The notes below the pieces were generated by a model. The model saw only the letters and a program-made list of their open reading frames with translations, had not been told where the DNA came from and did not search any database. Both the position numbers and the translations under genes were made by a program. Shown in pieces: positions 28,254 to 42,478 of a DNA stretch of 64,000 bases. The stretch's first letter is position 1; the number at the start of each line of letters is the position of its first letter. The stretch covers positions 1 through 64,000 of the forward strand of contig CABYIV010000001.1 of the NCBI GenBank assembly GCA_902519255.1. Direction: 5' to 3'. Source of the DNA: an uncultured Pelagibacteraceae bacterium. Lineage in GTDB: Bacteria > Pseudomonadota > Alphaproteobacteria > Pelagibacterales > Pelagibacteraceae.

Positions 28254-29227
28254 TAGTCAAACAATTTGAGTTAAATAAATTTGATTTTACAAAGTTTAAT
28301 ATTTATCTTTTTTATGGAAGAAATGAGGGTCTACAAAACAAAATAGCTGAGAAATATTTGATAAAAGATTTTGGTAATAATGTACAAAAATACGAAGAAA
28401 TAGAAGTTATTAATAATAAGGATATAATAATTGAAGAGATACTGTCAAAATCTCTTTTTGAAAATAATAAAATTATAATAATTTCCAGAGCTACAGATAA
28501 AATAGTAGAGTTTATAAGAGATATACTTGAAAGAAATATTAAAGATGTTTTAATTTTATTAAAAAGCTTATCTCTAGAAAAAAGATCAAAATTAAGAACA
28601 TTTTTCGAAAAAAATAAATCTTTGGCAGTTATTCCATTTTATGAAGACGATGAAAAAAACTTATCATCTATTATTTACGATTTTTTAAAACAAAATAATA
28701 TTAAATTGTCTAGAGAATCTATAAATTTACTGGTCAGTAGGGCTGGTGGTGATAGAAAAAACCTTAATATGGAACTTGATAAAATTCTTAATTATTCAAT
28801 TTCTAATAAAAAAATTGAATATTCAAATGTTGAAAAACTAACTAACTTAGTTGAAAATTACACTGTGAATGAACTGGCTAATTCTTATTTAAGTAAAAAT
28901 AAAAAAAATGTTACAAAAATTTTAAATGAAAACAATTACACTGATGAAGACTGTGTCTTAATATTAAGAACTATATTAAGTAAATCGAAAAGATTACTAA
29001 CAATTATGCAAGAATTAAAAAAATCAGAAAATATAGATAAAGCAATATCAGAGATAAGACCTCCTATATTTTGGAAAGAAAAAGATAGTGTAAAAAGACA
29101 AGTAATTTCATGGAAAACACAGGATTTAAAAAAAAAAATTTATGAAATAAATGATATAGAATTACTGATAAAATCAAATTCGAAGAATTCTTTAAACTTT
29201 GTATCAGATTTTATATTAAATTATTAA
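28250..29227 (+). CDS. holA: DNA polymerase III delta subunit
   Basis: Clamp-loader subunit that opens the beta sliding clamp. 325 residues with an N-terminal NIYLFYGRNEGLQNKIAEKY (P-loop-like but non-catalytic), LSKSLFENNKIIIISRA near residue 65-80, and the domain III region VNELANSYLSKNKK near 200. Weakly conserved family; the position after lptE is strong support. ATG overlaps lptE stop (ATGA); its TAA shares a TTAA palindrome with parB. Confidence 0.88.
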   Translation: MIVKQFELNKFDFTKFNIYLFYGRNEGLQNKIAEKYLIKDFGNNVQKYEEIEVINNKDIIIEEILSKSLFENNKIIIISRATDKIVEFIRDILERNIKDVLILLKSLSLEKRSKLRTFFEKNKSLAVIPFYEDDEKNLSSIIYDFLKQNNIKLSRESINLLVSRAGGDRKNLNMELDKILNYSISNKKIEYSNVEKLTNLVENYTVNELANSYLSKNKKNVTKILNENNYTDEDCVLILRTILSKSKRLLTIMQELKKSENIDKAISEIRPPIFWKEKDSVKRQVISWKTQDLKKKIYEINDIELLIKSNSKNSLNFVSDFILNY

Positions 29228-30075
29228 TAATTTCTCTTTATCGTATTGATTAGTCTGTCCAACTGATCTAAAGCCTTATATTCAAAAGTTAATGAACCTG
29301 AATTATTTTTTTTGTTATTTAGAATTACTCTCATCCCTATTTTTTCTGTAAGCTCATTTTCAGTAGCAATAAAATTTGGATCTTTGGAAAAATATTTTTT
29401 TTTCGAACCAGTTTTCAATATTCTTACAAGATTCTCGGTTTGACGAACTGACAATTTTTTTTTGATTATGTTTTCAGCCAAGAGTAAAGCATTATCTAAA
29501 CCAATCAATATTTTTGCGTGTCCTTGCGAAATTTTATAATTTCTAATCATATCAAGTATTTTATCTGGAAGAGAGAGTAGTCTAAGAGAGTTTGAAATAT
29601 GGGATCTGCTTTTTCCTATAAACTGAGAAACTTTATGATGGTCATATGAGAAATTATCAATTAGATTTTTATAACTTTCTGCCTCCTCGATTGGATTTAA
29701 ATCTTTTCTTTGAACATTCTCTATAATTGCTAACTCTAAAGATTTTAAATTATCAGCTTCTATGACTACAACTGGCACTTCATGAAGACCCGCGGACTGA
29801 GCTGCTTGCCAACGTCTTTCACCAGCAATTAGTTCAAATTTATCATCGTTATCTTTTGATTTCCTTACTATTAATGGTTGAATTATACCTCTCTCTTTTA
29901 TTGAGTTTGTTAGTTCCTCAAGAGCATCCTTTTCAAATATTTTTCTAGGTTGATTTTTGTTTGGTACTATAGAACTAATAGCAATGTTATCTTTTGCAGT
30001 TTTTATTTCATTGTCACCAATCAAAGATGACAGACCTCTTCCAAGACCTTTCTTGCTTTTAAAGGGATTAATCAT
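29224..30075 (-). CDS. parB: Chromosome-partitioning protein ParB
   Basis: CTP-dependent DNA clamp that loads at parS and organises the origin region. Begins with KKGLGRGLSSLIGD; ParB/Srx CTPase domain about residues 35-130 with GERRWQAAQSAGL (CTP-binding GERR); HTH region near 140-170 (KSRSHISNSLRLLSLP); C-terminal dimer domain. 283 residues. Overlaps parA in an ATGA. A perfect parS lies about 1.4 kb away in rsmG, see separate entry. Confidence 0.97.
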   Translation of the reverse strand: MINPFKSKKGLGRGLSSLIGDNEIKTAKDNIAISSIVPNKNQPRKIFEKDALEELTNSIKERGIIQPLIVRKSKDNDDKFELIAGERRWQAAQSAGLHEVPVVVIEADNLKSLELAIIENVQRKDLNPIEEAESYKNLIDNFSYDHHKVSQFIGKSRSHISNSLRLLSLPDKILDMIRNYKISQGHAKILIGLDNALLLAENIIKKKLSVRQTENLVRILKTGSKKKYFSKDPNFIATENELTEKIGMRVILNNKKNNSGSLTFEYKALDQLDRLINTIKRNY

Positions 30076-30872
30076 GCGGCACTCTCAACCTGATTATCTT
30101 GTTCTAAAAATTCTTCTGTAAATTTGAAATATGCTTTACTACCTGGACATATCTTATCATACATAAGAACTGGTATACCGTGGGATGGTGCTTCGGATAA
30201 TCTTACATTTCTTGGGACAGCTGTAGAATATACTTTTTCTTTAAAATAGTTCCTCGCCTCTAGCTCAACTTGACCTGAAAGCTTATTTCTTTTGTCAAAC
30301 ATAGTTAGTAGGATGCCTCTAATCTCTAAAGTAGGGTTCAAATTAGATTTTATCCTTTCTATGGTTTTCATTAATTGTGTAAGTCCTTCTAAAGCAAAAA
30401 ATTCTGTCTGGAGAGGTACAACTATAGCTTCAGAGGCTACCAAAGCCATGATTGTAAGAAGACTTAGAGATGGAGGACAGTCTATTAGTATATAATCGTA
30501 TGATGCTTCAGAATCATTTAAAATAAGGGCTAATTCGTCCTTTAATTTATAAGCTCTACGACTATCTCCAGCTGTTTCAACCTCAAGACCTGACAAATCT
30601 ACATTGGAACTTATCAAATTAAGATTTACAAAACTTGTTGGCTGTATCACTTCAGAAATTTTTTTATTTCCGTTTAACACATTATAGATTGTTTTATCTG
30701 AGTTTGTATTGTTAGGAAGTCCAAGACCTGTAGTTGCATTACCTTGAGGATCTAAGTCAATAACAAGAATTTTTTTACCTTTAATAGTTAATCCAGCAGC
30801 AAGATTAATTACTGTGGTGGTCTTACCCACCCCACCTTTTTGATTTATGACTGAAATAATTTTTTTATTCAT
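30072..30872 (-). CDS. parA: Chromosome-partitioning ATPase ParA
   Basis: Deviant-Walker ATPase that moves ParB-bound origins. KGGVGKTTTVINLAAGL near residue 12-28 is the deviant Walker A with signature lysine; VIDLDPQGNATTGLG near 37; IDCPPSLSLLTI near 128. 266 residues, chromosomal type. Overlaps rsmG by 8 bases and parB by 4, a single transcription unit mnmG-rsmG-parA-parB is likely. Confidence 0.97.
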   Translation of the reverse strand: MNKKIISVINQKGGVGKTTTVINLAAGLTIKGKKILVIDLDPQGNATTGLGLPNNTNSDKTIYNVLNGNKKISEVIQPTSFVNLNLISSNVDLSGLEVETAGDSRRAYKLKDELALILNDSEASYDYILIDCPPSLSLLTIMALVASEAIVVPLQTEFFALEGLTQLMKTIERIKSNLNPTLEIRGILLTMFDKRNKLSGQVELEARNYFKEKVYSTAVPRNVRLSEAPSHGIPVLMYDKICPGSKAYFKFTEEFLEQDNQVESAA

Positions 30873-31509
30873 TTTTTTTTTTTAAATTTGAAATTTTTAC
30901 TACAGAAGACTCATCACTAGTTAGACTTTTCATTTCTTCCACATCAAATTTCCATTTTGTAGAGACATCTTTTAAAATTTTTTTTCCACTCTTTCCTAAG
31001 TACATGACTATATATTTAAAGTTTTTGAAATTATTTGTTGCTATTTCAAAAATAACCGGCAAAGGTTTAAATGCTCGACAAATTATTACATCTGTAATTA
31101 AGTTTTTCTCCTCAAAAATATTTTTTTGATAAATTTTAGCTTCCAATTTGAATTTTTTTGCCATCTCTTTTAAGAAATTGCTTTTATGATAACTTTTTTC
31201 ATAAAAAATTAGCTTAAAACCTTGTTTTTTAGGTTTCATCAAAATACCTAAAACTATACTAGGAAGCCCCGCGCCTGATCCAAGATCAGTGCATACTTTG
31301 ATATCATTTTTATCAATAAAATCAAATGTTTGCGCACTATCGTAAATATGTCTTGAATTTATTGACTTTTCTGTACTTGAGCTTATTAAATTAATTTTCC
31401 TATTTGTAATTAAAATTGACTGCGAATAGTCTTCAAGCTCCATTAATGTTTCACGTGAAACATTTGGAAGATAAATTTTCTCTTTTTTTATTATTTTCGA
31501 ATCAATCAA
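30865..31509 (-). CDS. rsmG: 16S rRNA (guanine527-N7)-methyltransferase
   Basis: SAM-dependent methyltransferase of 16S rRNA (GidB). [16 protein letters not shown] near residue 75 is the SAM-binding glycine motif; [19 protein letters not shown] near 40-58 is family-typical. 214 residues. The start is a TTG at 31509 fused with the mnmG stop (TTGA). Residues NVSRET near 17-22 are encoded by the parS palindrome, a known placement of parS inside gidB. Confidence 0.95.
31447..31462. promoter_or_regulatory. parS centromere site (perfect 16-bp palindrome)
   Basis: TGTTTCACGTGAAACA, identical to the bacterial parS consensus and fully palindromic. It lies inside the 5' part of rsmG, 1.4 kb from parB and about 10 kb from the candidate origin, where ParB is expected to load. 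Confidence 0.95.
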
Positions 31510-33377
31510 GCTATATGCTTAATAGACTTTCTTTTAACGTGAGACAACAAAATATATACTGCAGCTGGAGTAATCCCATCTATTCTAAGTGCTTGACCAA
31601 GTGTTTTAGGCTTTATTTTTTTAAATTTTGACTTAACTTCATTTGATAATCCAGAAAATTGATCATAATCTAGATTTTCCGGTATTTTAAGATTCTCATC
31701 TCTTTTAAATGCTAAAATATCTGCATTTTGCTTTTTTAGATATCCTTTATAATGGGCTTTTATCTCAATTTGCTCATCGATTTCACGTGAAACATATTTA
31801 ATTTCTGGCCAAATTTCCCTAATTTTAATCATATTTACTGACTTTTGACACAGTATTTCTAATGCATTTCTTTTAACTCCATCTTTAGCAATATTAATTC
31901 CAAATTTAGATGCTTTTGAAGGGGAAATAAAAGAATTTTCCATATTTTTAAGACTTTTTTCTAATTTAGACGCTTTCTCTTTATATATACGTTTCCTATC
32001 ATCTAATATTAAACCAATATCAATTCCTTTTTGGGTAAGTCTTATATCTGCATTATCAGCTCTCAAAGATAGCCTGTATTCTGCTCTTGAGGTGAACATT
32101 CTATAGGGTTCTGCAACTCCTTTTGTAACTAAATCATCTATCATGACACCTATGTATGCCTCAGATCTATCAAGTATAAATGGTTCATTACCTTTAATAG
32201 TGAGAGCTGCATTTATTCCAGCTATCAAACCTTGAGCTGCAGCTTCTTCATAGCCTGTAGTTCCATTTATTTGTCCTGCGAGGTAAAGATTTTTAATTTT
32301 TTTTGTCTCTAGAGTTAGGAATAGCTCGCGCGGATCAACAAAATCATATTCAATTGCGTACCCAGGCCTTAAAATTTTTACATTCTCTAAACCATTGATA
32401 TTATTGCATATTTCTTGCTGTATTTCAGATGGTAAAGAAGTTGAAATCCCATTAGGGTAGATTGTTTTATCATTAAGACCTTCTGGCTCTAAAAATATTT
32501 GATGTTTTTGCTTATCAGCAAACTTAAAAATTTTATCTTCTATTGAAGGACAATATCTAGGACCGACACCTTGTATACTTCCTGAGTACATAGCACTTCT
32601 TTTTATATTTTTAGATATGATCTCATGAACTGCTCGATTGGTATAAGTCATCCTGCATGAAATTTGTCTATTGATATTTTTTTTTGTCAGGAAAGAAAAA
32701 AAATAAGGATCTTCATCTGCTTGCTGCTCTTCAAGTTTTTCGAAATTAATTGTCGTTGCATCCAATCTTGGTGGTGTTCCTGTTTTTAATCTTCCAATTT
32801 TAAAATCATATTTTTCTAACTGTTCACTTAGACCTGTTGAAGGTTTTTCATTAAATCTTCCTGCAGGTGTTTTTTCTTCACCAATGTGAATTAAACCATT
32901 TAAAAAAGTTCCAGTTGTTAAGATTACTTTAGATGATAGTACTTTTTTACCTGCTTGTGTAATAAAACCAATTATATTGTTTTTTTCAAAAATAAACTCT
33001 ATTACAGGATCACAAAAAATGCTTAAATTACAATAGTTTACAAGTTTTTCTTGCATATATTTTTTATATAATGATCTATCACTTTGAGTACGAGGTCCAC
33101 GCACTGCAGGGCCTCTACTTCTATTTAACAATCGAAATTGTATTCCTGATTTATCTGCAACTTCCCCCATTACACCATCTAGTGCATCTATTTCTCGAAC
33201 GAGATGGCCTTTACCTAATCCTCCTATAGCAGGGTTACATGACATCTCACCAATAGTATCAAATTTATGAGTAAATAAGGCAGTGTTTACACCTAATCTG
33301 GCAGATGCAGCTGCTGCTTCACATCCTGCGTGACCGCCTCCAATTACTACTACATCAAAAAATAGCTCGTTTTTCAT
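31506..33377 (-). CDS. mnmG: tRNA uridine-34 5-carboxymethylaminomethyl synthase subunit MnmG (GidA)
   Basis: FAD enzyme that with MnmE modifies wobble uridines. [17 protein letters not shown] near residues 8-24 is the FAD loop; [14 protein letters not shown]-type sequence ([19 protein letters not shown]) near 44; [13 protein letters not shown] near 156; [11 protein letters not shown] and [15 protein letters not shown] follow. 623 residues. Downstream of mnmE with a 76-base gap and overlapping rsmG. The 3' half contains a second, imperfect parS. Confidence 0.97.
31779..31794. promoter_or_regulatory. Second parS-like site (14 of 16 matches)
   Basis: GATTTCACGTGAAACA inside mnmG; the central 12 bases TTTCACGTGAAA are a perfect palindrome and only the first two bases differ from the perfect site 332 bases away. 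Multiple parS copies near the origin are usual. Confidence 0.8.
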
Positions 33378-39384: not shown

Positions 39385-40377
39385 TCAAATATTACTTTTA
39401 ATCAAACTATTAAGTAATTTTATATGATCATCGTTGTCATTTAGACATGGTATCATATCAAAATTTTCGCCACCTGCCTCCATGAAGCTTTCTTTACCTT
39501 GGATCAATATTTCTTCTAACGTTTCTACACAATCAGATGAAAACCCAGGGCATATCGCAAGAACATTTTTCATTCCCTCCTTTGGCAAATTTTCTAATGT
39601 TTTATCGGTGTAAGGTTGTAGCCATTCTTGTGGTCCAAATCTTGATTGAAACGTAGTTTTAATCTTAACTGATTTAAACTTCTCCGAAATTAATCTGGTA
39701 GTCTTGTGACAATAACAATGGTATGGATCTCCTTTATCAAAATATTTTTTTGGTATACCATGATAAGATGCTAAAATTAAGTCTGGTTTCCAATTTATCA
39801 TTTCCAACTTGGCATTAATAGAATTTACCAAAGCTTCAATATACAAAGGCTCAGATTCATAGTGAGGTATAATTTTTAAGGAAGGTTGCCATCGCATATC
39901 CATTAAGGTTCTATAAACTTCGTCACAAACTGTAGCCGTAGTTGCGGCTGCGTATTGAGGATATAGTGGTAAAATTACCAGATTTTCACAACCATTTTCA
40001 TGTAATTTTTCAACTTTACTTTTGATGCTAGGATTTCCATATCTCATAGCAAAATCAATTATAAGGTTTTCATTTGAAAGTATATTTGAAAGTTTTTGAG
40101 CTTGTTTTTTTGTGTAATACAGTAGTGGTGAAATATTTTCATCTTTCATCCATATTTCTTTATAAGCTTTCGCTGTTTTTGAGGGTCTTAAATTTAAAAT
40201 AAAGATATTTAATATTATTTTCCACAAAATTGGGTTTACTTCTATTACTCTTCTATCTGATAGAAATTCTTTTAAGTATTTTCTAATATCTAACCAACCT
40301 GTCGAATCAGGTGTACCAAGATTAATAATTAATACACCCGTTTTCCCAAATTTGATTTTTGGATGATTTTCTATCAT
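39385..40377 (-). CDS. hemH: Ferrochelatase
   Basis: Inserts iron into protoporphyrin IX, the final step of heme b synthesis. GVLIINLGTPDS near residue 14, the metal-site SYHGIPKKYFDKGDPY near 205, TFQSRFGPQEWLQPYTD near 240, and CPGFSSDCVETLEEI near 275 are signature motifs. 330 residues. ATG fused with the hemE stop (ATGA-type 4-bp overlap). Confidence 0.97.
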   Translation of the reverse strand: MIENHPKIKFGKTGVLIINLGTPDSTGWLDIRKYLKEFLSDRRVIEVNPILWKIILNIFILNLRPSKTAKAYKEIWMKDENISPLLYYTKKQAQKLSNILSNENLIIDFAMRYGNPSIKSKVEKLHENGCENLVILPLYPQYAAATTATVCDEVYRTLMDMRWQPSLKIIPHYESEPLYIEALVNSINAKLEMINWKPDLILASYHGIPKKYFDKGDPYHCYCHKTTRLISEKFKSVKIKTTFQSRFGPQEWLQPYTDKTLENLPKEGMKNVLAICPGFSSDCVETLEEILIQGKESFMEAGGENFDMIPCLNDNDDHIKLLNSLIKSNI

Positions 40378-41375
40378 TTGTATTCTCTAACTATTTTTAC
40401 AAGCTCTGCTACCATTTCAATTTTTGTCTGAGGAAGGATTCCATGACCTAAATTAAATACATAAGGATGACTTTTAAAAATTTCCAAATAGTTTGTTACT
40501 TGTTTTCTTAAGTTATCTTTATCTGTTAATAAAACTTTTGGGTCTAATCCACCCTGAACTGGAATTTGAATATTTTTTATCAATTCTTTTGGATTTATAT
40601 TATAATCAATGTTAATCATATCTGGATTTACAATTTTACAATATTCGGCGTAATTAGATATACCTCTTGGAAAACAAATAACTGGGACACCAATCTCTTT
40701 TGTATAATTAACTAAAGATGCAGTAGGATTATATAGATATTTGTCGAAATCTTTTGTAATCAAACCTGCCCAACTATCAAATATTTGTATTAACGTTGCT
40801 CCAGCTTTTACTTGGTTCCTAATGTGAACCTTAATAAACCTATCAAGAATTTTCAATAGATCGCTAATTAAATTTTTGTCAGAAAAAAAATTTTCAGATA
40901 AACCGTTTTTTGGGGAGACTCTATTAATCATATATACAAGCAAGGTCCAAGGAGCTCCAACAAAACCTATTAGATCTTTATTTTCTAATTTATTATTTTT
41001 ACTTAAATTTTGTAAAAGTTTATAAATTGACGACAACTTATCTGTAAAAATATTTTCTTCTGTCTCTAAAATTTTAGCTGCATTTATTTTTCCAAGACTA
41101 GGTCCAAAATCTTTCTTAAATTCTACTTGTTGCCCAAGCCCATAAGGTATCATTAGGATATCAGAGAATATAATAGCAGCATCAAAATCAAATCGATCTA
41201 TTGGTTGTATTGTTATTTCTTCCGAAAGATTAGAGTTTAAACATAAGTCTATAAAGTTAGTATTATTCTTTCTTATTTCCCTGAATTCAGGTAAATATCT
41301 TCCTGCTTGCCTCATTAACCATATAGGATTGAGATTTGTTTTATTATTTATCAAGCACTCTTTTATTGGTGTCAT
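40374..41375 (-). CDS. hemE: Uroporphyrinogen decarboxylase
   Basis: Converts uroporphyrinogen III to coproporphyrinogen III. PIWLMRQAGRYLPEFREIR near residues 17-35 and DAAIIFSDILMIPYGLG near 66 are signatures; FVGAPWTLLVYMI near 138. 333 residues. First gene of hemE-hemH-hemJ-rho. Its start faces the candidate origin, the same arrangement as hemE beside the Caulobacter origin. Confidence 0.97.
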   Translation of the reverse strand: MTPIKECLINNKTNLNPIWLMRQAGRYLPEFREIRKNNTNFIDLCLNSNLSEEITIQPIDRFDFDAAIIFSDILMIPYGLGQQVEFKKDFGPSLGKINAAKILETEENIFTDKLSSIYKLLQNLSKNNKLENKDLIGFVGAPWTLLVYMINRVSPKNGLSENFFSDKNLISDLLKILDRFIKVHIRNQVKAGATLIQIFDSWAGLITKDFDKYLYNPTASLVNYTKEIGVPVICFPRGISNYAEYCKIVNPDMINIDYNINPKELIKNIQIPVQGGLDPKVLLTDKDNLRKQVTNYLEIFKSHPYVFNLGHGILPQTKIEMVAELVKIVREYK

Positions 41376-41418
41376 TTATAATAAGATAATTATATTTGGA
41401 TTTATTATTAGTATGAAT

Positions 41419-41460
41419 TGTTGATAACGTAAATTACTCAATTTCAACAGTTTATCCACT
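41419..41460. promoter_or_regulatory. DnaA-box-like 9-mers on the hemE side
   Basis: TTATCAACA on the minus strand at 41419-41427 and TTATCCACT on the plus strand at 41452-41460, each one base from the consensus, separated by 24 bases. Confidence 0.6.
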
Positions 41461-41532
41461 TTTTATTAATATATATGAAAAGAAAATCCTTTAAATATTG
41501 GGGTATTTTATCACTCTAATAAATACTTGAAT

Positions 41533-41551
41533 TGTTAATAAGTTATTCACA
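41533..41551. promoter_or_regulatory. Back-to-back DnaA box pair
   Basis: TGTTAATAA, one G, then TTATTCACA: two 9-mers in opposite orientation separated by one base. The right one is a full consensus match; the left one has a single mismatch on the minus strand. Confidence 0.7.
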
Positions 41552-41656
41552 TTTACGAAAATGTTGAGAAAATAATTATAAATTTAAAGAAATACCATAA
41601 AATTAATATATCAACTGTTTTTCTTATTCTTTAATTAATTTATATTCAAGTTATAC

Positions 41657-42478
41657 ATGAAAAATACACACCAAGTTTTCCTAATATCAGATTCAACGGG
41701 CGAAACTCTTGATAGAATATTTATGGCCTTAAAAGCCCAGTTTAATAATTTCAATTATGATCTAAGTCAGTATTCATTTACAAGAACTGAGAACCAAATT
41801 TCAACAATTTTAAATAATGCAAAAAAACAAGAAAGTCCAATAATTTTATATACTGTTGTTAACAGCAAACTTGCTAAATTTCTTGCAGAAGAAGCTAACA
41901 AAAAGAAAATTCCATGCTTTGGGGTTTTAGGTGACCTTATTTTAAATTTTTCTAAAATTTTAAATCAAAAAGCAACCCATCAGCCAAGTGCCCAACATGT
42001 TTTAGATGATGATTATTACAAAAGAATTGAAGCAATACAATTTACAATGAACCATGATGATGGAAATAGTACTGAAGATATAAAAGAGTCTGATATCATT
42101 CTAATTGGTGTTAGTCGTACTAGCAAAACACCTACTTCAATTTATTTAGCTAACAAAGGTTTAAAAACATCAAATATTCCTTTGGTTAATGAAATGAATA
42201 TTCCTTCAGATGTTATTAATTCCAATACTTTATGTGTAGTAGGTTTAGTCACTGAAGCAGAAAGACTTTTTGATATTAGGAGAAATAGGCTCAACTCACT
42301 TAAAGAAAATGAAGCATCTGATTACACAAATTTAGAGAAAATTAGAGATGAAGTAGATCAATCAAAAAAAATATTTAAAAAAAACAAATGGCCAGTCATT
42401 GATGTAACAAGAAAATCTGTTGAGGAGACAGCCGCATCGATAATTAAGATATTTGAAATACGGAACAAAAATGGCTGA
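41657..42478 (+). CDS. ppsR: Pyruvate, phosphate dikinase regulatory protein (bifunctional kinase/phosphorylase)
   Basis: DUF299 protein that phosphorylates and dephosphorylates PEP synthase or PPDK. VFLISDSTGETLDRIF at the N-terminus, and the P-loop-like GVSRTSKTPTSIYLANKG near residue 152-169 are diagnostic. 273 residues. First gene right of the candidate origin; homologues (RP001 type) occupy this place in Rickettsia and Caulobacter. Overlaps maf by 8 bases. Confidence 0.95.
   Translation: MKNTHQVFLISDSTGETLDRIFMALKAQFNNFNYDLSQYSFTRTENQISTILNNAKKQESPIILYTVVNSKLAKFLAEEANKKKIPCFGVLGDLILNFSKILNQKATHQPSAQHVLDDDYYKRIEAIQFTMNHDDGNSTEDIKESDIILIGVSRTSKTPTSIYLANKGLKTSNIPLVNEMNIPSDVINSNTLCVVGLVTEAERLFDIRRNRLNSLKENEASDYTNLEKIRDEVDQSKKIFKKNKWPVIDVTRKSVEETAASIIKIFEIRNKNG

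Follow-up and report, generated by a model that had tools for sequence, protein, structure and literature searches.

hemE and ppsR diverge from an intergenic gap of exactly 281 bp (Table 1) in the first 64 kb of contig C1 (the whole stretch of DNA analysed, hereafter the window) of a SAR11 genome which is fragmented (1.07 Mb in 33 contigs, 83.8% complete). This is the arrangement of the alphaproteobacterial hemE/COG1806 locus, and both the length of the gap and the orientation of its flanking genes are as described in an earlier note on this DNA. The same note had called the gap the largest gene-free stretch, which holds for the window except for bases 1–557 at the contig edge, while two other stretches outlast it when a 120-aa ORF cut-off is applied. 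The gap is AT-rich, again as noted earlier, with a GC content of 17.8% against 28.9% in the window, a composition expected of the unwinding region of a DnaA-type oriC. To its left lie hemH, a hemJ-like gene, rho, mnmE, mnmG, rsmG, parA and parB, and to its right ppsR, maf, aroE, an SDR gene, coaE and a dnaQ-like exonuclease gene. The parAB pair and parS that the earlier note had placed about 10 kb to the left were located there. No tRNA or Rfam RNA was detected in the 64-kb window, folded DNA structure in the gap was not above chance (z 0.27) and the only inverted repeats in the gap were imperfect and AT-rich.

Table 1. Features of the hemE–ppsR gap and its surroundings, in window coordinates.
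Feature	Position	Strand	Remarks
parB	29224–30075	−	pair with parA, 29224–30872
parA	30072–30872	−	
parS	31447–31462		perfect TGTTTCACGTGAAACA; about 10 kb left of gap
Second parS core	31782–31791		TTCACGTGAA
hemE	40374–41375	−	uroporphyrinogen decarboxylase; left boundary gene; TIGR01464, PF01208
hemE–ppsR gap	41376–41656		candidate oriC; 281 bp, 17.8% GC
AT-rich stretch beyond trios	41376–41402		hemE side; moderately conserved, 0.73
Putative DnaA-trio array	41403–41414	−	5'-ATA CTA ATA ATA-3' (+ strand 3'-TAT GAT TAT TAT-5'); conservation 0.90
Spacer	41415–41418		box 1 to first in-phase triplet, 4 nt (7 nt to first CTA)
DnaA box 1	41419–41427	−	TTATCAACA; 1 mismatch to TTATNCACA; anchor box of putative unwinding module
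Conserved site upstream of box 1	41428–41437	−	GTAATTTACG; directly adjacent; probable weak tandem DnaA box
DnaA box 2	41452–41460	+	TTATCCACT; at most 1 mismatch
Weak box	41463–41471	+	TTATTAATA; TTATTAACA in 6/28 representatives
DnaA box 3	41533–41541	−	TTATTAACA; head-to-head with box 4
DnaA box 4	41543–41551	+	TTATTCACA; full consensus match
Weak box	41562–41570	−	TTCTCAACA; TAATTAACA in 13/28 representatives
ppsR-side site	41640–41648	+	TTATATTCA; degenerate in this genome; abuts ppsR
ppsR	41657–42478	+	Kinase-PPPase; right boundary gene; PF03618 = DUF299/COG1806, RP001/CC0001 family

Allowing at most one mismatch to TTATNCACA, the gap contains four near-consensus DnaA boxes where 0.68 would be expected from dinucleotide shuffles (P = 0.004). 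All four 9-mers of the earlier note were recovered, including the full match and the back-to-back pair formed by boxes 3 and 4 with 1 nt between them. Over the whole window the consensus occurs 82 times against 106.5 expected, and since it is not enriched across the window the clustering of boxes is local to the gap. Box 1 is found as TTATTCACA or TTATCCACA in several relatives, and the conserved site directly upstream of it, which reads TTAATCACC or TTAATTACC in other subclades, is probably a weak tandem DnaA box. The ppsR-side site lies within one mismatch of the consensus in 20 of the 28 same-genus representatives (for example as TTATAAACA or TTATAGACA) and has decayed here to TTATATTCA. 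The description of the gap as holding few boxes was thus an undercount, as relatives reveal further conserved weak sites, one of them abutting ppsR, and bring the number of conserved box-like sites to at least seven rather than four.

The hemE–ppsR arrangement is the same in 125 retrieved loci, a count that takes in the present locus and a few repeated matches. Among the closest relatives almost every locus has a gap of 278–288 bp, with exceptions at 254 and 271 bp, and in more distant relatives the gap is 255–284 bp long. In 36 non-redundant gaps, less than 80% identical to each other and still related rather than independent sequences, 147 near-boxes were counted against 26.5 ± 4.8 expected, and box density reached 4.15 per 281 bp, where the remaining intergenic DNA of these genomes has 0.38. 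In an alignment of 28 same-genus representatives, conservation is higher in columns that fall within boxes, tandem site or trios than in all others (0.83 against 0.67, P = 7e-11). Conservation of the 9-mers among relatives, which the earlier note had put forward as a check, is therefore borne out, with box positions kept across SAR11 gaps.

Read on its own strand, box 1 is followed on its 3' side by attc ATA CTA ATA ATA. Over the first four triplets of the 36 gaps, NTA occurs at a frequency of 0.81 in phase +4 and of 0.02–0.11 out of phase (offsets up to 12), and shuffles never exceeded 0.38, figures drawn from related AT-rich sequences that are not independent of each other. Phase is conserved throughout the genus: subclades carry either CTA ATA ATA or ATA CTA ATA, and the two arrangements differ by exactly one triplet. 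The search rule for basal unwinding systems consists of a DnaA box with at most two mismatches, a spacer of at most 16 nt and at least three 3'-NAN-5' trios (PMC8287927); here box 1 has one mismatch, the spacer is 4 nt and the trios are TAT GAT TAT TAT. It is probable, on this comparative evidence, that opening uses DnaA-trios and that the phased NTA triplets represent the basal unwinding system, with the AT-rich stretch on the hemE side of the array a likely continuation of the unwinding region. An oriC that opens without trios, in which the CTA/ATA triplets form another AT-rich unwinding element or are kept for IHF or a promoter, is unlikely although it carries some weight: an AT-rich motif near a box would also fit an E. 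coli-type unwinding element, and the array is weaker or absent in genera g4–g6 and in two of the four gaps of family f2, where the triplets are altered to CAA-like ones. Such an element would however have to account for the strict 3-nt phase and the fixed distance from box 1, neither of which is disturbed by the one-triplet displacement of CTA between subclades, and for the textbook CTACTACTACTA present at the equivalent place, beside the hemE-side box, in the other two f2 genomes (L129, L131), while an IHF role is at odds with the lack of an IHF consensus in the window gap.

Raw GC skew, in the window as in single genomes, proved too noisy and was dominated by gene orientation, and we therefore used base counts at 4-fold degenerate sites, strand-corrected, and did so in complete relatives because this genome is in pieces. 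The sample comprised six complete same-genus genomes (G003, G005, G011, G013, G015 and G020) with 2,332 genes in 120 stretches of about 20 kb, and the fit tried candidate origins all around the chromosome, each with its terminus placed opposite. Pooled lnL was maximal at the gap (78.3 at offset 0), with 77.7 at +20 kb and 49.6 at dnaA (+63 kb); permutations in which counts were shuffled among genes gave a maximum of 27.2. Gene orientation provides a separate line of evidence, independent of skew: the share of coding bases on the leading strand is likewise highest at offset 0 (63.7% in the six relatives). Skew alone cannot separate origin from terminus, but the 16S rRNA is directed away from the gap in all six genomes with a match and L2 in seven of seven, which identifies an origin. 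The six relatives, as a proxy for this fragmented genome, thus place the switch in strand composition and gene orientation typical of an oriC at the gap and not at dnaA, which is the outcome of the skew check that the earlier note had suggested.

Linkage to dnaA is the commonest arrangement of bacterial origins, and a true origin beside dnaA, at a distance of about 63 kb in the hemE direction, with the hemE–ppsR gap only a relic, would agree with the skew of G020 alone, which slightly prefers +60 kb. G015 is tied and G011 provides half of the signal, yet without G011 the gap still stays ahead of dnaA (lnL 38.8 against 29.7). In the pooled data dnaA falls short of the gap by 28.7 lnL units and the gap is preferred in 99.5% of bootstrap replicates, the intergenic DNA upstream of dnaA contains 0–2 near-boxes (ten genomes, G000 included), and the box positions in the gap remain under constraint, contrary to the expectation for a relic. 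An origin at dnaA is rejected on these grounds as very improbable.

The SAR11 skew is weak and mainly of A/T. At 4-fold sites the AT skew is +0.003 in leading and −0.045 in lagging genes, so that leading genes are relatively A-rich, while GC skew is nearly equal, and the six complete relatives do not show the customary enrichment of the leading strand in G and T. Simple GC skew is accordingly a poor guide in SAR11, and origin finders built on it may mislead.

The flanks of the gap are less stable than the gap itself. In two genomes of genus g2 (L269, L270) rho stands in place of hemE, the rho–ppsR gap is 353 bp long with three or four near-boxes, and the sole hemE match is distant (29–33% identity) and far away. 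ppsR was undetected in every sampled genome listed for family f2, where maf is the new neighbour (L129–L132); the hemE–maf gap is 271–279 bp in the three genomes with both ends read and contains 2–6 near-boxes. Turnover of one flank or the other thus leaves a gap resembling an origin in place, and this speaks against a shared promoter as its sole role. That the gap is only a bidirectional promoter region, whose boxes would let DnaA control transcription of hemE and ppsR, is extremely improbable: the genes are divergent, so promoters must sit in the gap, and DnaA is known to regulate transcription elsewhere, but sigma-70-like matches are at chance (5 against 4.7), a similar gap persists where rho replaces hemE or ppsR is lost, and the skew and orientation switch and the phased triplets would be left unexplained. 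Promoters may nevertheless coexist with an origin here. Skew, gene orientation and conserved boxes agree with the proposal of the earlier note, and we put the probability that the hemE–ppsR gap is the chromosomal replication origin, oriC, at about 94%. Its reading as an oriC of the DnaA type, placed in the hemE/COG1806 locus that is ancestral in alphaproteobacteria, is well supported by the comparative sequence data, and the gap probably includes a basal unwinding system module.

In such an origin DnaA would bind the box cluster, and a DnaA filament starting at box 1 and the weak tandem site beside it would grow in the direction of hemE along the single-stranded trios at 41403–41414. The AT-rich DNA is predicted to open at about 41376–41414, after which helicase would be loaded and forks would depart in both directions. 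We infer DnaA binding, filament direction, melting site and helicase loading from the trio model. The central and ppsR-side boxes (41452–41648) might assist assembly of the complex or its regulation, and ParABS, about 10 kb away, would segregate the copied origin.

The Cori of Caulobacter crescentus and the origin of Rickettsia prowazekii lie between divergent hemE and COG1806 genes (PMC1914354), the gene order cited in the earlier note, and with these origins the SAR11 gap shares locus, DnaA boxes and AT-richness. It differs in being shorter (theirs exceed 400 bp) and, compared with Caulobacter, in that the window gap has neither a TTAA-N7-TTAA CtrA site nor an IHF consensus (WATCAANNNNTTR); CtrA and IHF control of the Caulobacter type was rejected on this account. 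Among the 36 relatives, CtrA sites occur in 19, a count inflated by AT-rich boxes, and IHF sites in six, and no ctrA orthologue was found in Pelagibacter (PMC2877005). In Wolbachia, Anaplasma and Ehrlichia hemE is kept as a boundary and the other neighbour is swapped (PMC1914354), as in the hemE–maf gaps of f2, while genus g2 departs from them in keeping ppsR and replacing hemE by rho. The putative unwinding module resembles the basal unwinding system of Bacillus subtilis (boxes 6/7 and trios) in its box, short spacer and 3'-NAN-5' trios including GAT (PMC8287927). In contrast to B. subtilis, the SAR11 trios have drifted towards AT (GAT TAT TAT), the tandem box is very weak and the origin is not beside dnaA.

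A CcrM homologue is present in SAR11 (PMC3973325). Its motif GANTC is absent from the 36 non-redundant gaps (about 6–7 expected) and occurs twice in all 125 gaps against 28.8 expected, modest numbers from related sequences; elsewhere in SAR11 intergenic DNA the motif is mildly depleted (204 against 261 expected). The view of the earlier note that this is an unusually small origin, reflecting genome reduction, is weakened by its similarity in length to the minimal oriC of E. coli (about 245 bp) and by its at least seven sites. What stands of this view is that 281 bp is less than the 385–620 bp of Anaplasma and Wolbachia origins (PMC1914354). We tentatively suggest, as a possibility about which doubt prevails, a stripped-down SAR11 origin that consists of boxes and an AT-drifted trio module at fixed spacing, lacks CtrA sites and excludes GANTC despite the presence of CcrM in the clade. 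If this were true, initiation would be controlled by the level and state of DnaA alone, and neither of the Caulobacter origin controls (CtrA, CcrM) would act at the origin itself.

For SAR11, coverage work has described a V-shaped profile with a single origin (PMC9589681) and methylation work an origin-to-terminus gradient in Pelagibacter (PMC9516812), and the passages of these two papers available to us do not assign the origin to the hemE–ppsR pair. We found no open paper on the anatomy of SAR11 oriC. The location is nevertheless predictable from gene order and, because DoriC presumably lists the HTCC1062 origin at or near the hemE–ppsR locus, is not claimed as new. New in this analysis are the phased NTA triplets at fixed spacing from the hemE-side box. 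Phase-locked trios over many related genomes provide comparative support for the trio model, of which we found no published test in this lineage. Few cell groups in the ocean are as abundant as SAR11, and estimating their growth from metagenomes by origin-to-terminus coverage requires knowledge of the origin; skew places it to about 20 kb and sequence to a 281-bp gap, and candidate bases for DnaA binding and melting can now be named.

Some loci depart from the general pattern. In the 254-bp gap of L078 (AG-917-K10), neither box 1 nor the conserved ACGTAAATTA block is present, owing to a deletion or an assembly artefact. Both ppsR and hemE are absent from four genomes of the same genus that are 92–96% complete (G060, G065, G095 and G111), which suggests an assembly gap in the origin region and not gene loss. 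In G130 (C1:358206–359182; L128, L135), hemE is matched as two overlapping pieces in different frames, possibly a frameshift or an assembly error.
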